Positions 313 through 63,207 of a stretch of DNA of 64,000 nt are shown here, piece by piece (the first letter of the stretch is position 1; each line of letters starts with the position of its first letter). Both the position numbers and the translations under genes were made by a program. The stretch covers positions 1 to 64,000 of the forward strand of contig CALXMA010000003.1 in the NCBI GenBank assembly GCA_944389345.1. Reading direction: 5' to 3'. A model generated the notes under the pieces. That model did no database searches. It was not told the DNA's origin and saw only the letters and a list, made by a program, of their open reading frames with translations. The DNA comes from an uncultured Alphaproteobacteria bacterium (GTDB lineage: Bacteria; Pseudomonadota; Alphaproteobacteria; Rs-D84).

Positions 313-3300
313 TCAGAATCTGTACGATCCCGAAACCTTGATATTATGCAATTGGATTACCTGGTTATATTGATACCGATAATCGATACCAAACTGCAAC
401 CCATTCGCAGACAAGAATTCTACACCACCGCCGATATTCGCCCACAGCGGGTCAACATCGACATTATATTTGGTGTACTGATGCGCCGGCGCGAATTTGT
501 ACTTAACAAAATCTGGTGCCCCCAACACATCATATTCGATACCTGCGGACGCATATGGACGAATCTGGAACCACGCAGACGGATATATACGTTTCTGGGC
601 CGTCAACGAATAACCCGGCGTCAGAATCAGATAACCATCTGACTGCATATCCATATAGTCTTGGCCACCGGCATGTTCGGTTATATCAAAACCAAAGTTA
701 TAACCGACACGTGCATACATATTGCCAACGACATATTCGTTCAACCAATCGTGCAACAGTCCCCATTCACTAATGACACTGAACGCGGTGCCACTGCCGT
801 CAATATGGTCAACAAACGTCTGGTCGCGCGAAATATCCAACATATGTACGTCCAAGAACGCATTACCGTACAAACGTGTCTTTTCGCCAAAGGTCTTCAT
901 CATATAACCACCGACCCCGATGTTCAAATCATCGACATCCAACCCGACCGTTCCACGCACAGATTCACCCGGTCTGTATCCCAATTCGACAACATCGGAA
1001 TTATCGCCATTTGTGTTGGACACATGCCCCGTCACACCGACGATTAATGTTTCAGACTGTTGCCAATCAAAACCACCAGAAACGCGGAATCTGTCGCCTT
1101 TGACACGCTTATCATCGGACACATCCTGGCTGAACATGCCGTATTCGACATCTAACCAAGCCTTTTTCAAATCGCGATTACGATTCCAAATGAATTCATC
1201 AAACATCCGATCTTCGAACGAACGGAAATTTGTATGTTCATTCAACGTAATACTGCCAACGACCTGTTCCAGTTCACGCGGTTGGAACAAACGGCTGAAT
1301 CGCGCCAGCGGTTCCCCATGTCCGGTCATTTGATAGTATTCCATACGGTCATACAATTCATTGGCCATTTCTTCGAAATTCGTACCTTCGAATATCGCCG
1401 GTATAATTTCGATTGGCGAATTCGGCGAAAATCCAGTGTTCATCATTTGACCTTGGACCAATTTATCCAACGCATCAGACGCAGAAATTTCGCCATCTGT
1501 TACATCTTCGACCCCTGCGACAACATCTTCTGGGTCAAACACCTGGATTGGTCCACCGAACTGCGGATCGAACACAACATACAAACTGTCGGCCAACCCA
1601 TCGCCATCCGTATCACGTTCCGTTATATACGCAGGCAATTCTTTGCGCGGGTTAGACATATTGTATTCATTTGATACCGCCAAATACGGCACACAAATGG
1701 AACCATCGGCATTACAGAACTTTATATCCAAATTACGCAGGCTTTCGAAACCTTCGGCCGTGGCCAATCCATCTTCGGCATGCAACAGCCAAATTGCCGA
1801 ACCTTGGTCAACGATTTCGAACAACGTAATACCAAAATCTGGTGCAATTGTCGCAGAACCGCCCGCAACACCGGAAATAACACTGTTCAGTTTTTTACCA
1901 ACGGTAATCAGTGCCCCCCCACCATTTTCTGGATTTGGATTTGTAATTTCGCCGACTTTGTTATCTTCGGTAATTTCAACCGATGCCCAGTAATTCTGCG
2001 CGGACGTATTGCCAACACCATCGCCATACGGCAAAATGGCCGCCCACAAATCGCTGTTGTTATTGATGGTATAATTACCCGTGATGTTCAACCGTTTTAA
2101 TCCCATAAAGTCCACACCACCGGAAACACTGCCATCAATATTCGCAACAATCCAAGAATCTTCTGGGTTATTAACGAATCGCAAATCCAACGCGTCTATA
2201 TCCCCAGACACATTGATATCACTGGCGTTAACAATCATAGAACCCGACGCCTGGTCAATACCGGCAACGTCGAACGCGGTTGCAAAGATTTCATACGAAT
2301 CAGATGCCACGTTCACATCACCATTTACCAACTGGCCTTCAAAGTTCTGATACAGCGGTCTGTTTTGCGTTGTAAACGTACCATCATTGGCATTCAATCC
2401 TGCACCCGCCAGTGTGATTACACCAACGGAACCAACATCGAACGTATCAACTGTTGTGTATCCACTGCCAGAATCCAGCAACAAATTACCAGAATTCGCA
2501 ACAGATTTAACATTGATGCCATTCTGCGCCACAATCTGTAAATTTCCGCCATTATTCAGCATGTTCGCAGAAACATCACCGGCGACCAAACGCAAAGATG
2601 TCCCGTCGTCCAAACTAATATTACCGCCGAACCGCGCGCTGTTTGCGACCGTCCAAACACCGTTTCCATCATTTACGATATAATCACCCGTAACATTCAA
2701 AGAATTTGCCGAAAAATCAACATCAGACGCCAACAAATTCAATGTTCCCGTCTGACCGGTTGTTCCCTGGGCGATATCACCATTAACAACGACATCACCA
2801 CTTGCGATAACATCGGCAACGCTGACCGCATCGATATTAACGACCGCGCCTTCTGCGATTGTCATACCATTCATCGTGGTTGTACCATTTGCCTTGACAT
2901 TCACTGTTCCGGCATTAACGACCGCATTCCCCATCGCAACGGTCTTGTCAGATTCAAACGTAATCGTGCCACTGTTGGCAACATCGCCAACCTGAACCGT
3001 AACACCATCGGCCAAGAACGTACCGCCAGACTGAACCTGGACCCCGCCATCAACGATAACCGCACCCTGTGGCGCTTCCAGATTTAATGTCTTGTCGCCC
3101 AAATCAATTGAACCACCGACAACAACCTGGGCATCATTAGATTTCAACGTCAAATTATTAACGCCCGACCCAACGACAGTCCCACTGACCGGCTTTGGTG
3201 ATGGCGCCAAACCATCAAACCACAGATTTCCCGCCAGATGCAATTCCTTGTCCGTTGTAATTTGTGTACCATTTGCCAACAACACACTTCTGTCATCGAC

Positions 3301-5367
3301 AAACAAAGAACCCAAATCCGCATCATCCACCGTCAAGTTTAATGTTGCACCATTTTCAACTTCTACGGCCCCAGACACAGACAAATAATCAGTACCCGTT
3401 GCACCAAACGCAATTGCATTATTGGTACCAGACAATTTTACGCCCTGGTCTACGAAAATAGTCGCGGCATCAAACGTGATACTGCGTCCCGACAGAGACG
3501 TATTAACAATGTTTCCACCAATATGAATAGATGCATTATCCGTACCGCCGGCACTGTTAAATGCACTTAATACAAATCCCTGATTCCCATATGCAGCAAC
3601 ATTAACATCACCATCTGCTGTGGAATCACCCGCAACATTAACATTTCCCGCGATATTCACAGATGCACCCGCCGCCAATTTATGTGTTGCGGTATCAATA
3701 TTCATAACACCGCCACTGACATCAACACCACCGGAAACGGTTACACCACCGCTTAACGCATTCAGATTTAATTCGCCACCATTAACATCGATTGCACCGA
3801 TGGTCATATATGGTAAAACATCCTGGCCGGTACTGGACCCCTGAACATTTAATTCGCCACCATTTGCGGTCAACACACCACCGACATTAATTGCATACGC
3901 ATTCAGTTCCAACTGACCCGATTCGTTTGTGACGTTTTGTGTAATTGTGATAACGCCATCACTGGTCGTAGACAATATTTCTAACCGTTCCCCAGAATTC
4001 GAAACACTGCCACTGTTGGAAAAATTACGACTGCCGATTGTCAGCGCCCCATCCGCGGTCACAGACATTGTACCGGCGCTGTTCGAAACACTGCCATTAA
4101 CCGCCAACGTAGACGCAGAATCCACCTGGGTATCGACGGCAACATTATCAGACGAAATTCCGCCATTGATAACAATGCCGGCCCCACTGGACAACGTCGA
4201 TTCGATATTCAAAATTCCGCCATGGTTGGTCACGGAACCACCACCACGCACAGAATCCCCAACGACTAACGCCTGGGCTTTGATATTCATATTTGCATCG
4301 GCATTATATGACACACCACTGGTCAAACCGTTAACAATCGCGCTGTTTATTTCCAGTGTATCCGCCGTTACCTGTAAATCAAAACTGTTTAATCTGTTTT
4401 GGAACACCGCAATCCAATCATCGGCATTATCGGTGCCCAAATCCAAAGTTCCCGTAATTAATTCGAACTGGTTTCCATCGGCCATCGCGCTGATATCGAT
4501 ACCATGTTCAAAGACCGTTGCACCACTGACATTAACTCTTAAATCGCCACCACTGACAAACGACGGATTCGCGGAATTACCGCCCTGCACCGTCAGATTA
4601 TCCGCAACAATAACCATTTTGCCACTGTGATCTGTACCAAAGTCAGCATCATTTTTCATAGTACCACTGACGGTAATATCACCGGCACTAATATTCATTT
4701 CGGAATTAGAATTAGAAATATTGCCCGCGTTCAACGCACCTTCGGTTTTAATAATCATATTCCCGGCGCGATCAGAATTTTCAATTGACCCCGTCACGGT
4801 TATAGATTCCGTGCCATTGATATTTGTTGTTCCGGTCCCAGTATTGCTGAATCCGCCCATAGACAACGGCCCACTGACGTCCAGCACGGTATTTCCGCCA
4901 CTGACGGCAACCATACCACCGACGGTCATTGATTCCGCACCATCTTCTTGTCCCGTTGTACTGGGCGTACCCTGAATCACCAGTCCGTTATCCGCACTGA
5001 TTCCATTGGTAACATTTAACGTACCAACGTCGCGCATAGACAAATATCCATTTGCATCGATACTGTCAAACGTTGCGTTATACGTTGTCCCCAACGAGTT
5101 TTGCAGATTCAAAACATACCCATCTGCAATAGACAACAGCCCATCAACAGAAATATCGCCCTTGGTCGTCAGGGTATAATTTTCCTGGTTAATATCTGGT
5201 CCTGTGAACAAGGCCGAATTATCTTCGACCGTTGTACCTATGTACATTGCACTGACATCAATACCGTCTTCGAACGTAGTATTTGTGACCAATCCACCGG
5301 TAAAAGGTTCGGCCCATGCACCGACCGGCGCCAGGCACAACATAAAAAATATTGTCTTTTTCATCAT
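313..5367 (-). CDS. Large autotransporter (type V secretion) adhesin-like protein
   Basis: The 1684-residue protein starts with a signal peptide (cleavage near GAWA-EP, residue 19-20). About 1250 residues of low-complexity, G/N/V/D-rich passenger follow, built from short strand repeats of the type VSGGVDVSGG, as in beta-helix passengers. A D/E-rich linker at about 1270-1320 leads to a C-terminal autotransporter beta-barrel of roughly 280 residues ending in SGSYRF, with the terminal aromatic residue recognised by the BAM machinery. By family knowledge the barrel sits in the outer membrane and the passenger is exposed outside. No protease triad or other catalytic motif was seen, so adhesion is a guess. 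It diverges from enolase, and a TATAAT-like -10 lies at 5397-5402 on the minus strand. Confidence 0.9.
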   Translation of the reverse strand: MMKKTIFFMLCLAPVGAWAEPFTGGLVTNTTFEDGIDVSAMYIGTTVEDNSALFTGPDINQENYTLTTKGDISVDGLLSIADGYVLNLQNSLGTTYNATFDSIDANGYLSMRDVGTLNVTNGISADNGLVIQGTPSTTGQEDGAESMTVGGMVAVSGGNTVLDVSGPLSMGGFSNTGTGTTNINGTESITVTGSIENSDRAGNMIIKTEGALNAGNISNSNSEMNISAGDITVSGTMKNDADFGTDHSGKMVIVADNLTVQGGNSANPSFVSGGDLRVNVSGATVFEHGIDISAMADGNQFELITGTLDLGTDNADDWIAVFQNRLNSFDLQVTADTLEINSAIVNGLTSGVSYNADANMNIKAQALVVGDSVRGGGSVTNHGGILNIESTLSSGAGIVINGGISSDNVAVDTQVDSASTLAVNGSVSNSAGTMSVTADGALTIGSRNFSNSGSVSNSGERLEILSTTSDGVITITQNVTNESGQLELNAYAINVGGVLTANGGELNVQGSSTGQDVLPYMTIGAIDVNGGELNLNALSGGVTVSGGVDVSGGVMNIDTATHKLAAGASVNIAGNVNVAGDSTADGDVNVAAYGNQGFVLSAFNSAGGTDNASIHIGGNIVNTSLSGRSITFDAATIFVDQGVKLSGTNNAIAFGATGTDYLSVSGAVEVENGATLNLTVDDADLGSLFVDDRSVLLANGTQITTDKELHLAGNLWFDGLAPSPKPVSGTVVGSGVNNLTLKSNDAQVVVGGSIDLGDKTLNLEAPQGAVIVDGGVQVQSGGTFLADGVTVQVGDVANSGTITFESDKTVAMGNAVVNAGTVNVKANGTTTMNGMTIAEGAVVNIDAVSVADVIASGDVVVNGDIAQGTTGQTGTLNLLASDVDFSANSLNVTGDYIVNDGNGVWTVANSARFGGNISLDDGTSLRLVAGDVSANMLNNGGNLQIVAQNGINVKSVANSGNLLLDSGSGYTTVDTFDVGSVGVITLAGAGLNANDGTFTTQNRPLYQNFEGQLVNGDVNVASDSYEIFATAFDVAGIDQASGSMIVNASDINVSGDIDALDLRFVNNPEDSWIVANIDGSVSGGVDFMGLKRLNITGNYTINNNSDLWAAILPYGDGVGNTSAQNYWASVEITEDNKVGEITNPNPENGGGALITVGKKLNSVISGVAGGSATIAPDFGITLFEIVDQGSAIWLLHAEDGLATAEGFESLRNLDIKFCNADGSICVPYLAVSNEYNMSNPRKELPAYITERDTDGDGLADSLYVVFDPQFGGPIQVFDPEDVVAGVEDVTDGEISASDALDKLVQGQMMNTGFSPNSPIEIIPAIFEGTNFEEMANELYDRMEYYQMTGHGEPLARFSRLFQPRELEQVVGSITLNEHTNFRSFEDRMFDEFIWNRNRDLKKAWLDVEYGMFSQDVSDDKRVKGDRFRVSGGFDWQQSETLIVGVTGHVSNTNGDNSDVVELGYRPGESVRGTVGLDVDDLNIGVGGYMMKTFGEKTRLYGNAFLDVHMLDISRDQTFVDHIDGSGTAFSVISEWGLLHDWLNEYVVGNMYARVGYNFGFDITEHAGGQDYMDMQSDGYLILTPGYSLTAQKRIYPSAWFQIRPYASAGIEYDVLGAPDFVKYKFAPAHQYTKYNVDVDPLWANIGGGVEFLSANGLQFGIDYRYQYNQVIQLHNIKVSGSYRF

Positions 5368-7032: not shown

Positions 7033-7584
7033 TCAATAATAACAGTTGGCCGTGTATTTATACGTACCACTGCCATCTGAACCGGTTGTACCAGACGGAA
7101 TATAACATGACGATATACTGGTTGAACCCGACGGTGATGTTCCCGGTGATGGACATGACGCGCACCCACTGCCACTCTTGTACGTGCCACTGTTACAAAC
7201 AAATGTGGAACCATTGCCACCCGCACATGTCGCATTGGTCGGACATTTTGTACAGCCCGCAAATGCCGATGTTGCCGTTCCATAATACCCCGATGCACAT
7301 TTGTATGTCATACTGGTAGTCTTACACAACGGTGTTACATGACAACTACTACTACATGTCGCTGTCATATTGCGGTTTGTTGTTGTCGTAACACCATTAG
7401 CGGTACGCGTAGATGTCTTGCAACTGGTACAGAAAGTAGTATTTGTACATCGTGAATCATACGTTATACTGCCACCACAACCGATTGGGCAGTTATGCGG
7501 GCAACAATTAGGTGCCCCATACGCACCCGGCCCGATTGGCACGCACAACGCGCCAACCGCGATTAATTTAAGTATATGTTTCAT
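7033..7584 (-). CDS. Small secreted Cys-rich protein, family member 1
   Basis: The 183-residue protein has a signal peptide (MKHILKLIAVGALCVPIG, cleavage near GAYG-A) and then over 20 cysteines in spaced pairs, with EGF/TNFR-like phrases such as CASGYYGT, CTKCPTNATC and CASCPSPGTS. The C-terminus is CYIPSGTTGSDGSGTYKY followed by TANCYY. It shares the repeat style and the last 40 residues with the proteins at 13312-13953 and 62671-63207. I chose the ATG at 7584, which has GGGGGA about 6 nt upstream, over an ATG four codons earlier. Function is unknown; an exported disulfide-bonded surface or adhesive protein is plausible. It sits behind a leader of about 300 nt with an attenuator. Confidence 0.85.
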   Translation of the reverse strand: MKHILKLIAVGALCVPIGPGAYGAPNCCPHNCPIGCGGSITYDSRCTNTTFCTSCKTSTRTANGVTTTTNRNMTATCSSSCHVTPLCKTTSMTYKCASGYYGTATSAFAGCTKCPTNATCAGGNGSTFVCNSGTYKSGSGCASCPSPGTSPSGSTSISSCYIPSGTTGSDGSGTYKYTANCYY

Positions 7585-7886
7585 ATTTTCCCCCATTTTT
7601 GCTTTTAATTACATTCACCGCCGAACGACGACGAATAAACAAAAACCGCCAAAATCTGGATGGCGGTCGGGGCGTTCAAAAAACATAAAAACGAAATGTT
7701 CCCGTGGCCTTTGGGTATTCCCTGTGGTATATCCACGGCACCCCGACCTTTTATGTCGGGGACGATAAATCAGCCACGCAAAATGAATGCGTTGCCTTTT
7801 CGTCGGATTTCCGGTGCCCATCGGCACCGCGTTTTTATGGGATTTTGAAGTCCCTGAATCCAACATCCCTGTCAGACTCACCGAAA
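7585..7886 (-). ncRNA. Structured leader with C4-like antisense core and attenuator (leader 1)
   Basis: The leader runs on the minus strand from a TATAAT promoter to the Cys-rich gene. Hairpins in order: 7875-7880 with 7855-7860; 7812-7829 (CGGTGCC/GGCACCG); 7755-7761 with 7741-7748 (CCCCGAC/GGTCGGGG); then the core 7740-7701, reading CCGTGG, TATACCACAGG, hairpin, AAAGGCCACGGG. The GGTCGGGG at 7748-7741 can also pair perfectly with CCCCGACC at 7672-7665, which overlaps the terminator stem. The core resembles phage C4/CI antisense RNAs from memory of the family; this was not searched. Leader 2 shares the order and much of the sequence. Confidence 0.65.
7641..7667 (-). terminator. Attenuator terminator inside leader 1
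   Basis: ACCGCCA/TGGCGGT stem (7661-7667 with 7645-7651) with a 9-nt loop, followed on the minus strand by TTTTTG. It lies about 55 nt before the start codon of the Cys-rich gene, so it must be read through or disrupted for expression. The pairing partner for the upstream GGTCGGGG overlaps its 5' arm. Confidence 0.75.
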
Positions 7887-7915
7887 ATTATACTTTATTC
7901 CCCCATCAAACACAA
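7887..7915 (-). promoter_or_regulatory. Promoter of leader 1
   Basis: On the minus strand, TTGTGT (7915-7910), a 17-bp spacer and TATAAT (7892-7887). Leader 2 has the same layout, TTGTTT-17-TATAAT, and both are followed by TTTCG and the first leader hairpin. Confidence 0.65.
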
Positions 7916-7965: not shown

Positions 7966-8940
7966 TACATTGCACCCACGCACATGCCACCCCGCGTCAT
8001 CACACACCAACCAAACAAACCAGAAATAAAAAAAAGGGGCGCGAAACGGCCCAACCACCATCGCCATCCCACGTAATTACCGCCCCCAATACCACACCGT
8101 ATCACAAAAAGTCAAAGCCCGATAACCGCCCCATTTCACGCACAAAGACAACACAATCGGACACCGAAACACATTGTTTCGCACAAATCAACACCCACGC
8201 ACCCGCCATCCCGCGTCATCACACACCAACCAAGCAAATCAGAAATAAAAAAGGGGCGCGAAACGGCCAACCCACCATCGCACACCCAACATAATCTAAT
8301 CGGATTAAACATCCCCATCTAACCCACACCGTATCACAAAAATAAGGCCGGCGCCCGATAACCGCCCCACCGACCGCCCCATTTCACGCACAAACACAAC
8401 CCAATCGGACACCGAAACACATTGTTTCGCACTAATCAACACCCACGCACACGCCACCCCGCATCATCACACACCAACCAAACAAACCAGAAATAAAAAA
8501 AAGGGGCGTAAAACAACCCAACCACCAACGCCATCCCACGTAATTACCGCCCCCAATACCACACCGTATCACAAAAAGTCAAAGCCCGATAACCGCCCCA
8601 CCGACCCAACCATCTCACGCACAAACACGACACAATCGGCCACCGAAACACATTGTTTCGCACTAATCAACACCCACGCACACGCCACCCCACATCATCA
8701 CACACCCAATATAATCTAATCGGATTAAACATCCCCATCTAACCCGCACCATGCCACAAAAATAAAGCCGGCGCCCGATAACCGCCCCATTTCACGCACA
8801 AACACGACACAATCGGACACCGAAACACATTGTTTCGCACTAATCAACACCCACGCACCCGCCACCCCACATCATCACACACCAACCAAGCAAATCAGAA
8901 ATAAAAAAAGGGGCGCGAAACAGCCAACCCACCATTTCGC
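7966..8940. repeat. Degenerate tandem array of a composite 180-250 bp unit, non-coding
   Basis: About 1 kb in which the plus strand is very rich in A and C and poor in G and T. Recurring modules: a 17-nt palindrome CGAAACACATTGTTTCG at 8165, 8413, 8644 and 8821; an ACCCACGCAC...CATCATCACACACC block at about 7974, 8192, 8440, 8671 and 8850; a poly-A/GGGGCG block (AGAAATAAAAAAAGGGGCG); a CCCGATAACCGCCCC block at four places; ATAATCTAATCGGATTAA at 8291 and 8711; and CACGTAATTACCGCCCCCAA at 8071 and 8538. Unit spacing is 248, 231 and 177 bp. No open reading frame is conserved between units. It could be a protein-binding or chromosome-organisation site, or a decayed repeat. Confidence 0.85.
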
Positions 8941-13311: not shown

Positions 13312-13953
13312 TTATTCTTTGTAATAGCAATTCGCCGCATACTTGTACGAACCGGTACCATCGCTCCCGGTATACCCCGACGGGATATAGCAAGACGTTA
13401 TACCAGTAGAGCCACTGACACTGGTTCCCGGCGACGGACAATCACGACACCTTATAAAACCACCATCATTCGGCATATACTGACCGGCGGGACAACTCAA
13501 AACAAGTGGTGGCTTTTCTTCGCAACCGGTACCGGCATCATTTTTTTGATACCCGGCCTTGCACACAAACGTGGAACCATTACCACCGGAACATGTCGCA
13601 TTTGCGGGACACCGTGTACAGCCGGACGTTTGACTGGTTGCCGTACCATAATACCCAACCGCACATTCATACGATGTTACATTTGTAATTTCGCAACTTG
13701 GCGTAACAATATTGTTTACACACGACGTTTTTATACTCCGGCGTCCCGTAACCGCAATACCATATGAATTGATCTGTGTTCCCGTACCACTGCACGACGA
13801 ACAAAAACTGAGATCGGTACACAACGGCGAAGTGCCACCCGGGCAGAACTCGATCGCCAAGTAACAACAGTTGAATTCAGCAAGCCCCCATGCCGGCGAT
13901 CCGATTGGCACACACAGCGCGCCAACCGCGATTAATTTAAGTATATTTTTCAT
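13312..13953 (-). CDS. Small secreted Cys-rich protein, family member 2
   Basis: 213 residues with a signal peptide (MKNILKLIAVGALCVPIGSPAWG) nearly identical to that of the 7033-7584 protein. The mature part has more than 20 cysteines; phrases such as CAVGYYGTATSQ, CTRCPANATCSGGNGSTFVC and CRDCPSPGTSVSGST match the same positions in the paralogue. The C-terminus is CYIPSGYTGSDGTGSYKY then AANCYYKE. An insert of about 25 residues (EEKPPLVLSCPAGQYMPND) is specific to this copy. The ATG at 13953 has GGGGGAAAAG upstream and was preferred over an upstream in-frame start. Function unknown; probably surface-exposed or released. Confidence 0.85.
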   Translation of the reverse strand: MKNILKLIAVGALCVPIGSPAWGLAEFNCCYLAIEFCPGGTSPLCTDLSFCSSCSGTGTQINSYGIAVTGRRSIKTSCVNNIVTPSCEITNVTSYECAVGYYGTATSQTSGCTRCPANATCSGGNGSTFVCKAGYQKNDAGTGCEEKPPLVLSCPAGQYMPNDGGFIRCRDCPSPGTSVSGSTGITSCYIPSGYTGSDGTGSYKYAANCYYKE

Positions 13954-14282
13954 TTCTTTTCCCCCATTTTCATTTTGCAACGATGCCCGAACGAACATCG
14001 AACTATGAAAAAAGACCGCCGAAGCAATGGCGGTCGGGGAGTTAAGAAAATCACATCAGAGAATGACCCCCGTGGCCTTTGTGTGCATCGGCACACTGTT
14101 GTATAGCCACAGGCTCCCCGGCCAAGGTGAACAAGCACCCTGAATCGGGAAGAAAAAATAAAAAGCGCAAATCCGCGCCAAGTATTTTCTCAGTCGGATT
14201 ACAACGCGATTTTCACAATCGCACTGCTCTGATAAAGGATTTCTTACGTCCCCGAACCAACGTCCCCATTGGTTCACACGAA
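13954..14282 (-). ncRNA. Structured leader with C4-like antisense core and attenuator (leader 2)
   Basis: Minus-strand leader of about 330 nt. First hairpin GAACCAA/TTGGTTC (14275-14269 with 14260-14254), then GGGGACGTAAGAAATCC and AATCCGAC as in leader 1. CTTCCCG (14152-14146) can pair with CGGGGAG, part of GGCCGGGGAG (14123-14114). The core, GCCTGTGGCTATACAACAG, a GTGTGC/GCACAC hairpin and AAAGGCCACGGG (14114-14069), differs from leader 1 mainly in its central hairpin, whose stem is kept while the sequence changes. GGCCGGGGAG can instead pair 9 of 10 with CTCCCCGACC (14041-14032), which overlaps the attenuator stem. Confidence 0.65.
14008..14035 (-). terminator. Attenuator terminator inside leader 2
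   Basis: GACCGCC/GGCGGTC stem (14035-14029 with 14020-14014) and an 8-nt loop, followed on the minus strand by TTTTTTC. It lies about 60 nt upstream of the Cys-rich start codon, as in leader 1. Confidence 0.75.
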
Positions 14283-62429: not shown

Positions 62430-62670
62430 GTGAATGGGTGTTCCATTCATGGGGTGTAACGACCTCTGCACACGCGTCGGAATATAATCTCGTGGCGCAT
62501 CAATTGCGCTATTTTTACTATTACGACGAAAAACAAACTCCTGATTTTATGGGTCAGGAGGGTCGCGGAATATCAAATACGCGACACAATTCGTGTGATT
62601 GTCGTTAACCTCCTGACCACCAAATTTTGTTGGTGGTTTTTCATTTCGAAAAACATCAGGAGTCCAGACA
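62430..62670 (+). ncRNA. Structured leader with alternative pairings and attenuator (leader 3)
   Basis: A leader of about 240 nt. The first hairpin TGAATGG-GTGTT-CCATTCA (62432-62450) is followed by GGGGTGTAA, much as in leaders 1 and 2. Then come four segments: CTCCTGA (62538-62544), GGTCAGGAGG (62552-62561), CCTCCTGACC (62609-62618) and TCAGGAG (62656-62662), which is the ribosome site. The second pairs perfectly with the first (7 bp) or the third (10 bp); the fourth can pair with the first or third. Inside the 10-bp stem lie the GTCGCG/CGCGAC and ACAAT/ATTGT hairpins. The C4-like core of leaders 1 and 2 is not obvious here. Confidence 0.65.
62617..62641 (+). terminator. Attenuator terminator inside leader 3
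   Basis: CCACCAA (62617-62623) pairs with TTGGTGG (62630-62636), then TTTTT. Its first two bases are also the last two of the CCTCCTGACC arm, so the two folds compete. Confidence 0.75.
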
Positions 62671-63207
62671 ATGAAAACAAATTTTATATTACACATTGGG
62701 ATATTTGCGATACTAACCACAATACCCAACATCGCCAATGCAATTGGCATCGGTGGTACTGGTTGTATTCAAGGCCCCGGCATGACTTGCGAATGTTCTG
62801 GTGGAAGCAACGCTGGTGCAACATGCACGGTAAATTCACAATGCCCTGGTGGAACATGCGTAAACGTCGGCGGCGGTATAACGCCGCCCACCCTTTGCAC
62901 CCCAGAAAACTGCAAACCGACCACAACCGGTTGGGGTTCATGCGGTGTTGGCGCCAATTCGTATGTCGAATGCGAAGCAACCGCCGAATGCGTGAACAAT
63001 TTGTGTGTACGTGGCCAAAATTACCGTTGTGTTGCCGGCGCATACGGCAACCCCAGCGCATCAAACGAAACCGCCTGTGCACCATGCCCATCACCCGGAA
63101 CATCGGCCGCGGGTTCGACCAGTCAATCCGATTGTTATATTCCGGCCGGAACCACCGGGTCGGACAGTACGGGCACGTATAAATATACGGCCAATTGTTA
63201 TTACTGA
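62671..63207 (+). CDS. Small secreted Cys-rich protein, family member 3
   Basis: 178 residues with a signal peptide (MKTNFILHIGIFAILTTIPN, cleavage near NIANA-IG). The mature N-terminal half is Gly/Cys-rich and specific to this copy (CIQGPGMTCECSGGSNAGAT, CPGGTCVNVGGG). The C-terminal half matches the paralogues: CVAGAYGNPSASNETACAPC, then PSPGTSAAGST, CYIPAGTTGSDSTGTYKY and TANCYY. Ribosome site CAGGAG lies 8 nt before the ATG and is part of a leader sequence that can be sequestered. Function unknown; exported, disulfide-rich. Confidence 0.85.
   Translation: MKTNFILHIGIFAILTTIPNIANAIGIGGTGCIQGPGMTCECSGGSNAGATCTVNSQCPGGTCVNVGGGITPPTLCTPENCKPTTTGWGSCGVGANSYVECEATAECVNNLCVRGQNYRCVAGAYGNPSASNETACAPCPSPGTSAAGSTSQSDCYIPAGTTGSDSTGTYKYTANCYY

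Follow-up and report, generated by a model that had tools for sequence, protein, structure and literature searches.

The leader of a gene for a secreted Cys-rich protein, found in a 64,000-nucleotide stretch of DNA from an uncultured alphaproteobacterium (the window), is best read as an sRNA-Xcc1-like antisense RNA switch that targets itself as C4 does and would hold the gene in check by attenuation, a reading given a probability of about 70%. The sRNA-Xcc1 RNA itself looks like a C4-type self-targeting antisense RNA, because its phage and plasmid copies precede antirepressor or symE genes and have the same target site upstream, often again on the ribosome-binding site.

Architecture of the leader

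Leader 1 comprises about 296 non-coding nt on the minus strand, from a -10-like box to the ATG at 7584-7582 (Table 1). TATAAT or TATACT boxes occur at the equivalent position in most other leaders of the same genome; inspection of the sequence upstream of the leader 1 box found no consensus -35. Folding of leader 1 is far above that of shuffled versions (z -4.66, 0/100). Its core contains a conserved internal loop, ATACNACA/AAA, which is unpaired and is enclosed, together with P3, by P2. The most variable portion of the target site is part Y, which gives the specificity. The terminator hairpin is missed by a simple terminator scan because its loop is 9 nt long. Further upstream, the intergenic region 7973-8912 holds about 1 kb of degenerate direct repeats, with units of 149-161 nt that are about 70-96% identical and spaced 177-467 nt apart.

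A sequence-only reading had named a TATAAT box, strands A, B, and C, a terminator, and a gap of about 300 nt, and a sequence check finds each of them on the minus strand where it was placed. That description did not include the antisense site that determines specificity (7849-7830 with 7693-7675).

Table 1. Coordinates of the leader RNAs and their parts in the window
Feature	Position	Strand	Basis or remark
Leader 1, putative -10 box TATAAT	7887-7892	-	Sequence
Target part X (TTCAAAA), complementary to X′ of the core (7849-7843 with 7681-7675)	7843-7849	-	Matched changes across leaders
Target part Y (CATAAAAACG), complementary to P4 loop Y′ (7839-7830 with 7693-7684)	7830-7839	-	Permutation and site-restricted tests
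Strand A (CCCCGAC), anti-P1, pairs with strand B	7755-7761	-	Sequence; A:B recurrence
RNA core, sRNA-Xcc1-like (P1, P2, P3, P4)	7657-7748	-	RF02221 match; R1 model 84.3 bits; covariation
Strand B (GGTCGGGG), 5′ strand of P1	7741-7748	-	RF02221 match, covariation
P2, CCGTGG 7738-7733 with CCACGG 7707-7702	7702-7738	-	RF02221 match, covariation
P3, GGG 7722-7720 with CCC 7715-7713, inside P2		-	RF02221 match, covariation
Y′ (CGTTTTTATG), loop and 3′ strand of hairpin P4, antisense to Y	7684-7693	-	
X′ (TTTTGAA), P4-P1 junction, antisense to X	7675-7681	-	
Strand C (CCCCGACC), 3′ strand of P1, final 4 nt common to the terminator	7665-7672	-	
Intrinsic terminator, GACCGCCA-loop-TGGCGGTT and T tract	7641-7668	-	Hairpin 7668-7644, then T's
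Shine-Dalgarno-like TGGGG, can pair with CCCCG of strand C	7591-7595	-	Sequence complementarity
Downstream gene, 183-aa protein, signal-like N-terminus, 11% Cys in mature part	7033-7584	-	
Second leader, core	14024-14123	-	Target X 14246-14240, Y 14234-14227; heads Cys-rich gene 13953-13312
Third leader, short 75-nt type, core	62552-62626	+	Target X 62457-62463, Y 62469-62474; heads Cys-rich gene 62671-63207

Family identity and fold of the core RNA

The core of leader 1 matches the sRNA-Xcc1 model RF02221 over its full length (model 1-87 of 87, 36.8 bits, E 4.5e-5), the single meaningful Rfam match in the leader. The score falls short of the curated cut-off of 53 bits, and the RNA is filed as a divergent relative of sRNA-Xcc1, uncertified as a member. 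The sequence-only reading had assigned it to the C4 family instead, which did not hold up: the C4 model RF01695 finds no match at E≤10 in leader 1 and none anywhere in the window's own genome. The C4 RNA of phage P1, used as a control, scores 68.8 bits with RF01695 and has no match to RF02221; a cross-match between C4 and sRNA-Xcc1 in phage P1 was sought and none was found.

The sRNA-Xcc1 fold, in which P1 encloses P2/P3 and P4, is present with covariation. Across 86 core sequences 95.9% of cells are paired and 16/21 pairs show double changes (0/500 shuffles); the alignment was fitted to the model and is thus biased towards it, and slid controls fall from 0.44 to about 0.07. The core structure was set by hand and then realigned with a covariance model. 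RNAalifold on a MAFFT alignment recovered P1 only, because P2-P4 vary in length. The sequence-only reading was to count as refuted if a C4 match and covariation among homologous leaders were both missing; the C4 match is absent but covariation is strong, so it is not refuted on this ground.

The antisense site and its matched changes

A compact bipartite site, X-CC-Y, lies upstream of the core, about 90 nt away in the general layout and about 45-125 nt across leaders; it is complementary to the P4 loop (Y′) and to the junction behind P4 (X′). The site is present in nearly all of 120 homologous leaders; at a few loci (e.g. L101, L119) the best-scoring site lies elsewhere or is weak.

Since the site is chosen by complementarity, each core was also made to search other leaders as a control. 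Complementarity was 34.8 in the own leader versus 26.3 in other leaders (s.d. of the mean 0.37), a difference reached in 0/100,000 permutations over 68 non-redundant loci. When the comparison was restricted to the site, the values were 34.8 and 17.5, and the own site was the unique best in 75/84 cases. Similarly, among 20 distinct leaders of the window's own genome, matched core-site pairs averaged 33.6 and mismatched pairs 16.0, which suggests that the RNA copies inside one genome are largely orthogonal. In that genome 20/22 leaders have their own target, and two (C1:60399 and C14:613) have no clear matched site.

The possibility that leaders of this clade generally have a second target at the start codon, equivalent to a2/b2 on the ribosome-binding site, was also considered and gave a weak signal only. 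Complementarity of X′ was 14.2 versus 13.0, the own leader was best in 5/65 cases, and the result for Y′ was not significant; the signal is probably due in part to base composition.

Terminator and competing strands

The sequence-only reading had proposed a real terminator overlapping strand C and a pairing of strand B with its upstream copy A, and both recur beyond leader 1. A terminator hairpin followed by a T tract is found in 114/120 leaders, and an A:B run of at least 5 bp in 64/68 non-redundant leaders. The 5′ arm of the terminator overlaps strand C, at the end of P1, by 3-4 nt in 82 of the 114 terminator-bearing leaders. Because both use the same 3-4 nt, full P1 and full terminator are predicted to be mutually exclusive. 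Antitermination may be partial, since P1 would destroy only half of the terminator stem.

Partition-function folding predicts that X is paired with a probability of 0.77, Y with 0.81, and A:B with 0.73, and that P1 forms with a probability of 0.03. Blocking the X-Y site raises the predicted value for P1 from 0.03 to 0.26. Three-strand competition of the type known from the CI RNA of satellite phage P4 is therefore present within one leader. The same reading had likened strands A, B, and C to seqA, seqB, and seqC of that phage; a C4-like working logic stands, but the A/B/C pairs constitute a switch between P1 and anti-P1 and are not the specificity site.

Strand C can also face the ribosome-binding site. 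Its complementarity to the Shine-Dalgarno sequence is 14.2 versus 12.0 in the window's own genome (0/20000 permutations), a pairing that is strong only in the 75-nt type and weaker in the long type. The third leader is an example: its strand C (CCTCCTGA) could base-pair with TCAGGAG, the Shine-Dalgarno sequence of the gene behind it. Many cores begin with GGT, and CC follows P1 after 0-2 nt in 89/116; these features would be compatible with RNase P release at the 5′ end of P1, but the terminator sequence could explain this CC.

Copies in the genome and the bacterial family

A covariance model, R1, was built from the RF02221-matching sequences of the window's GTDB family. Run on the genome from which the window comes, it gives 23 matches (E<1), 22 of which were counted as leaders (13 of the long type and nine of the short 75-nt type). 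Across the family, R1 matches occur in 38/40 genomes and in all 13 genera, with up to 53 in one genome. RF02221 itself finds matches at E≤0.01 in 90/142 genomes of the same GTDB family and copies over the cut-off in 4/142, reaching 58 bits. The leader RNAs mostly lie 35-75 nt before start codons.

The genes behind them encode predominantly secreted proteins. In the window's own genome, all 21 assigned downstream proteins have a signal-like N-terminus versus 14/39 window genes, where the call follows a simple rule rather than SignalP and the 39-gene background includes some of the same leader-headed genes. At least 6% Cys is found in 18/21 downstream proteins versus 4/39 window genes. Family-wide, 88/106 downstream genes have a signal peptide. 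Pfam gave no family for the two Cys-rich downstream proteins tested, one of them the product of 7033-7584.

The Cys-rich proteins that were compared share a C-terminal block, CPS..GTS..G(S/T)T....CYIP(S/A)GTTGSD, which is possibly an anchoring or sorting domain. The products of 7033-7584, 13312-13953, and 62671-63207 have unrelated middles and the common C-terminal sequence CPSPGTS..CYIP(S/A)GTTGSD..GTYKYTANCYY. Elsewhere in the window, 313-5367 on the minus strand encodes a 1684-aa secreted repeat protein of autotransporter-like appearance with no Pfam match. Other long secreted proteins of the family that resemble it sit behind the same leader RNA (e.g. L023, L045).

Relatives in phages and plasmids

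RF02221 matches over the cut-off occur in 39/398 genomes drawn across the phylum. An external set of 34 sRNA-Xcc1 loci over the Rfam cut-off, 30 from this survey and four others, carries the upstream X-Y site (37.3 versus 29.6; 0/50,000 permutations). In these loci X-Y is also repeated on the ribosome-binding site (28.4 versus 20.7; 0/50,000; 27 loci with a near start codon).

The sRNA-Xcc1 RNAs of phages and plasmids lie directly upstream of antirepressor or symE genes. Ten downstream genes were scanned with Pfam, among them eight from external loci picked by eye as antirepressor-like or SymE-like and one picked as unknown; they gave BRO-N (three), KilA-N (two), P22_AR_N, pRha, ORF6N, and SymE, and one was without a family. 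In the annotated phages Aaphi23, Pmp3, IFTN1, and P27 the RNA is just upstream of ant or antirepressor genes, and in phage 4316 it is just upstream of a KilA-N gene. The annotated phages carry both the upstream site and the one on the ribosome-binding site, the latter partial in IFTN1. One locus within the window's bacterial family heads a phage Rha gene and is a plausible bridge between the phage and chromosomal forms. That homologues front phage antirepressors bears out the earlier suggestion that a phage-type RNA was taken over ahead of secreted-protein genes; for on/off variation of the DNA, which had also been suggested, there is no evidence. Because phage and plasmid homologues exist, these loci show that location in integron cassettes is not required for sRNA-Xcc1 RNAs.

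Several further features were seen. A Neisseria gonorrhoeae record has a second, weaker sRNA-Xcc1-like match (L061:2210-2280, 33.9 bits) between the first RNA and a KilA-N gene. Proteins of about 120-190 aa lie behind sRNA-Xcc1 RNAs in several genomes (L159, L175, L176, L185, L186); they share the motif V..KGK.R..DA near their start, and the one tested had no Pfam match. A below-cut-off match to isrK (35.1 bits) falls on the a1/b1 region that precedes C4 in phage P1 (L060:48230-48311), a hint that isrK and upstream target regions of this sort may be related.

Comparison with known RNA systems

The sRNA-Xcc1 RNA was mapped as an 88-nt RNA in Xanthomonas (PMC2996969). It was also found upstream of symE in integron cassettes, where a divergent mechanism was suggested (PMC12444791). 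Leader 1 resembles it in the full-length model match, the P1-P4 fold, the upstream X-Y target, and the place directly upstream of a gene. It differs in having an intrinsic terminator that overlaps P1 and no clear ribosome-binding-site copy, and in heading a secreted Cys-rich protein instead of an antirepressor or SymE. A literature search found no paper linking sRNA-Xcc1 with antirepressors; the collection was limited, so novelty is not proven by this absence.

The likeness to C4 of phages P1 and P7 (RF01695; a1/b1 sites RF03163) is one of organization. In both, the outer stem is closed by B and C, the 5′ end is GGT, the antisense parts are the loop of the second hairpin and the junction that follows, and the upstream target has the order X(a)-Y(b). 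Phage P1 C4 likewise has an anti-P1 strand upstream (ACGCCC/GGGCGT), and the succession of target, anti-P1 strand, RNA, and 3′ strand of helix P1 is common to leader 1 and the annotated C4 region of that phage. The full phage P1 layout, with a1/b1 upstream, then C4, then a2/b2 at the start of icd, is matched by the phage sRNA-Xcc1 loci. By contrast, leader 1 is without a C4 model match, and phage P1 has the second target on the icd ribosome-binding site, has no overlapping terminator, and controls an antirepressor.

For satellite phage P4, the antisense element of the CI RNA is seqB itself, and termination depends on Rho. Common to that system and these leaders are three mutually exclusive strands per leader and premature termination as the output. 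Here, however, B/C is a structural stem, the specificity lies in X′-Y′, and the terminator has the sequence of an intrinsic one. In Acinetobacter baumannii, the 'Group 1' sRNAs (PMC5320573) are likewise multi-copy, chromosomal, and C4-type, with a variable a′ region, and were suggested to be a bacterial adaptation of a phage RNA. Those RNAs match C4 and have no assigned self-target genes, whereas each RNA here is in the leader of its apparent target gene.

Proposed mechanism and alternative readings

The sequence gives good support to a self-targeting, attenuating leader of C4 type. In the nascent leader, X-Y would pair with X′-Y′ and strand A with strand B. Strand C would then be free, the terminator could form, C could also cover the Shine-Dalgarno sequence, and the gene would be off by default. 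Alternatively, the core would fold as the mature RNA with P1 closed, weakening the terminator. Once P1 is closed, the RNA could be excised. The probable enzyme is RNase P, acting at the GGT with which P1 begins; C4 is freed by this enzyme too, at a 5′ end of sequence GGW, and its pairing segments are a′ and b′ (PMC5320573). Once free, the RNA of about 90 nt could be active in trans against X-Y in its own leader. In phages, the RNA would also repress translation via the second X-Y copy on the ribosome-binding site; here this copy appears to be mostly lost, with the terminator taking over its role. Repression, given this loss, would depend either on the terminator or on pairing with the Shine-Dalgarno sequence; read-through might even be what the RNA promotes. 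The C4 RNA of phage P1 acts as a repressor.

Read-through is central to a more tentative proposal, which the analysis considers unlikely. About 20 secreted-protein genes would each have their own orthogonal RNA as a private address; the released RNA would capture X-Y, P1 would form, and read-through would be promoted, so that a lineage with genomes of about 1 Mb would have turned a phage immunity RNA to its own use. A purely cis-acting attenuator or riboswitch is held to be equally doubtful. In such a leader the X-Y/X′-Y′ and A/B/C helices would alternate in response to ligand or protein binding or to transcription speed, without release of any RNA. The predicted ground state of a single molecule is indeed the off state, terminators are nearly general in these leaders, the ribosome-binding-site copy is mostly lost in the clade, the unpaired ATACNACA/AAA loop could be a binding site, and cis pairing, too, would produce matched changes inside a transcript. 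Nevertheless, Xanthomonas contains a discrete RNA of this family (PMC2996969), and the phage homologues target the ribosome-binding site in C4 fashion, for which a released or re-pairing RNA is needed. Moreover, variation in Y among the copies within a genome exceeds what a cis helix would need if the ligand were shared.

The remaining explanations are much less probable. The published reading of sRNA-Xcc1 is that of a virulence sRNA with many distant targets (PMC12189769; PMC2996969); applied here, it would mean trans action on unrelated mRNAs and adjacency to genes by chance. It is very improbable given that the leader of each RNA holds its best and co-varying targets and that the position directly upstream of a gene is conserved. 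Still harder to credit is a genuine C4 RNA: the order of parts and the antisense use of the second hairpin loop and junction are the same, but the RF01695 searches of leader and genome and the phage P1 control all speak against it. Mobile DNA without a regulatory function, dispersed as a repeat, deserves equally little credence. Copy numbers of up to 53 per genome would suit such an element, but not its placement, mostly 35-75 nt before start codons, the enrichment of signal-peptide genes behind it, the matched antisense changes, or the terminator overlap.

Significance

The RNA sRNA-Xcc1, which has been known since 2010 and interpreted as a virulence sRNA, gains a concrete, testable target, namely the leader it sits in and the gene that follows, and its family is tied to the C4 immunity RNAs of phages. 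The leaders described here represent a large chromosomal take-over, extending to all 13 genera of a bacterial family with dozens of copies per genome at most, mostly before secreted proteins and each with its own recognition sequence. Mutually orthogonal antisense switches of this kind lend themselves naturally to expressing surface proteins one at a time, and the leader set is a ready source of orthogonal RNA parts. If the private-address proposal is true, each gene would have a self-reinforcing heritable on/off switch, opposite in sign to C4 in phage P1.
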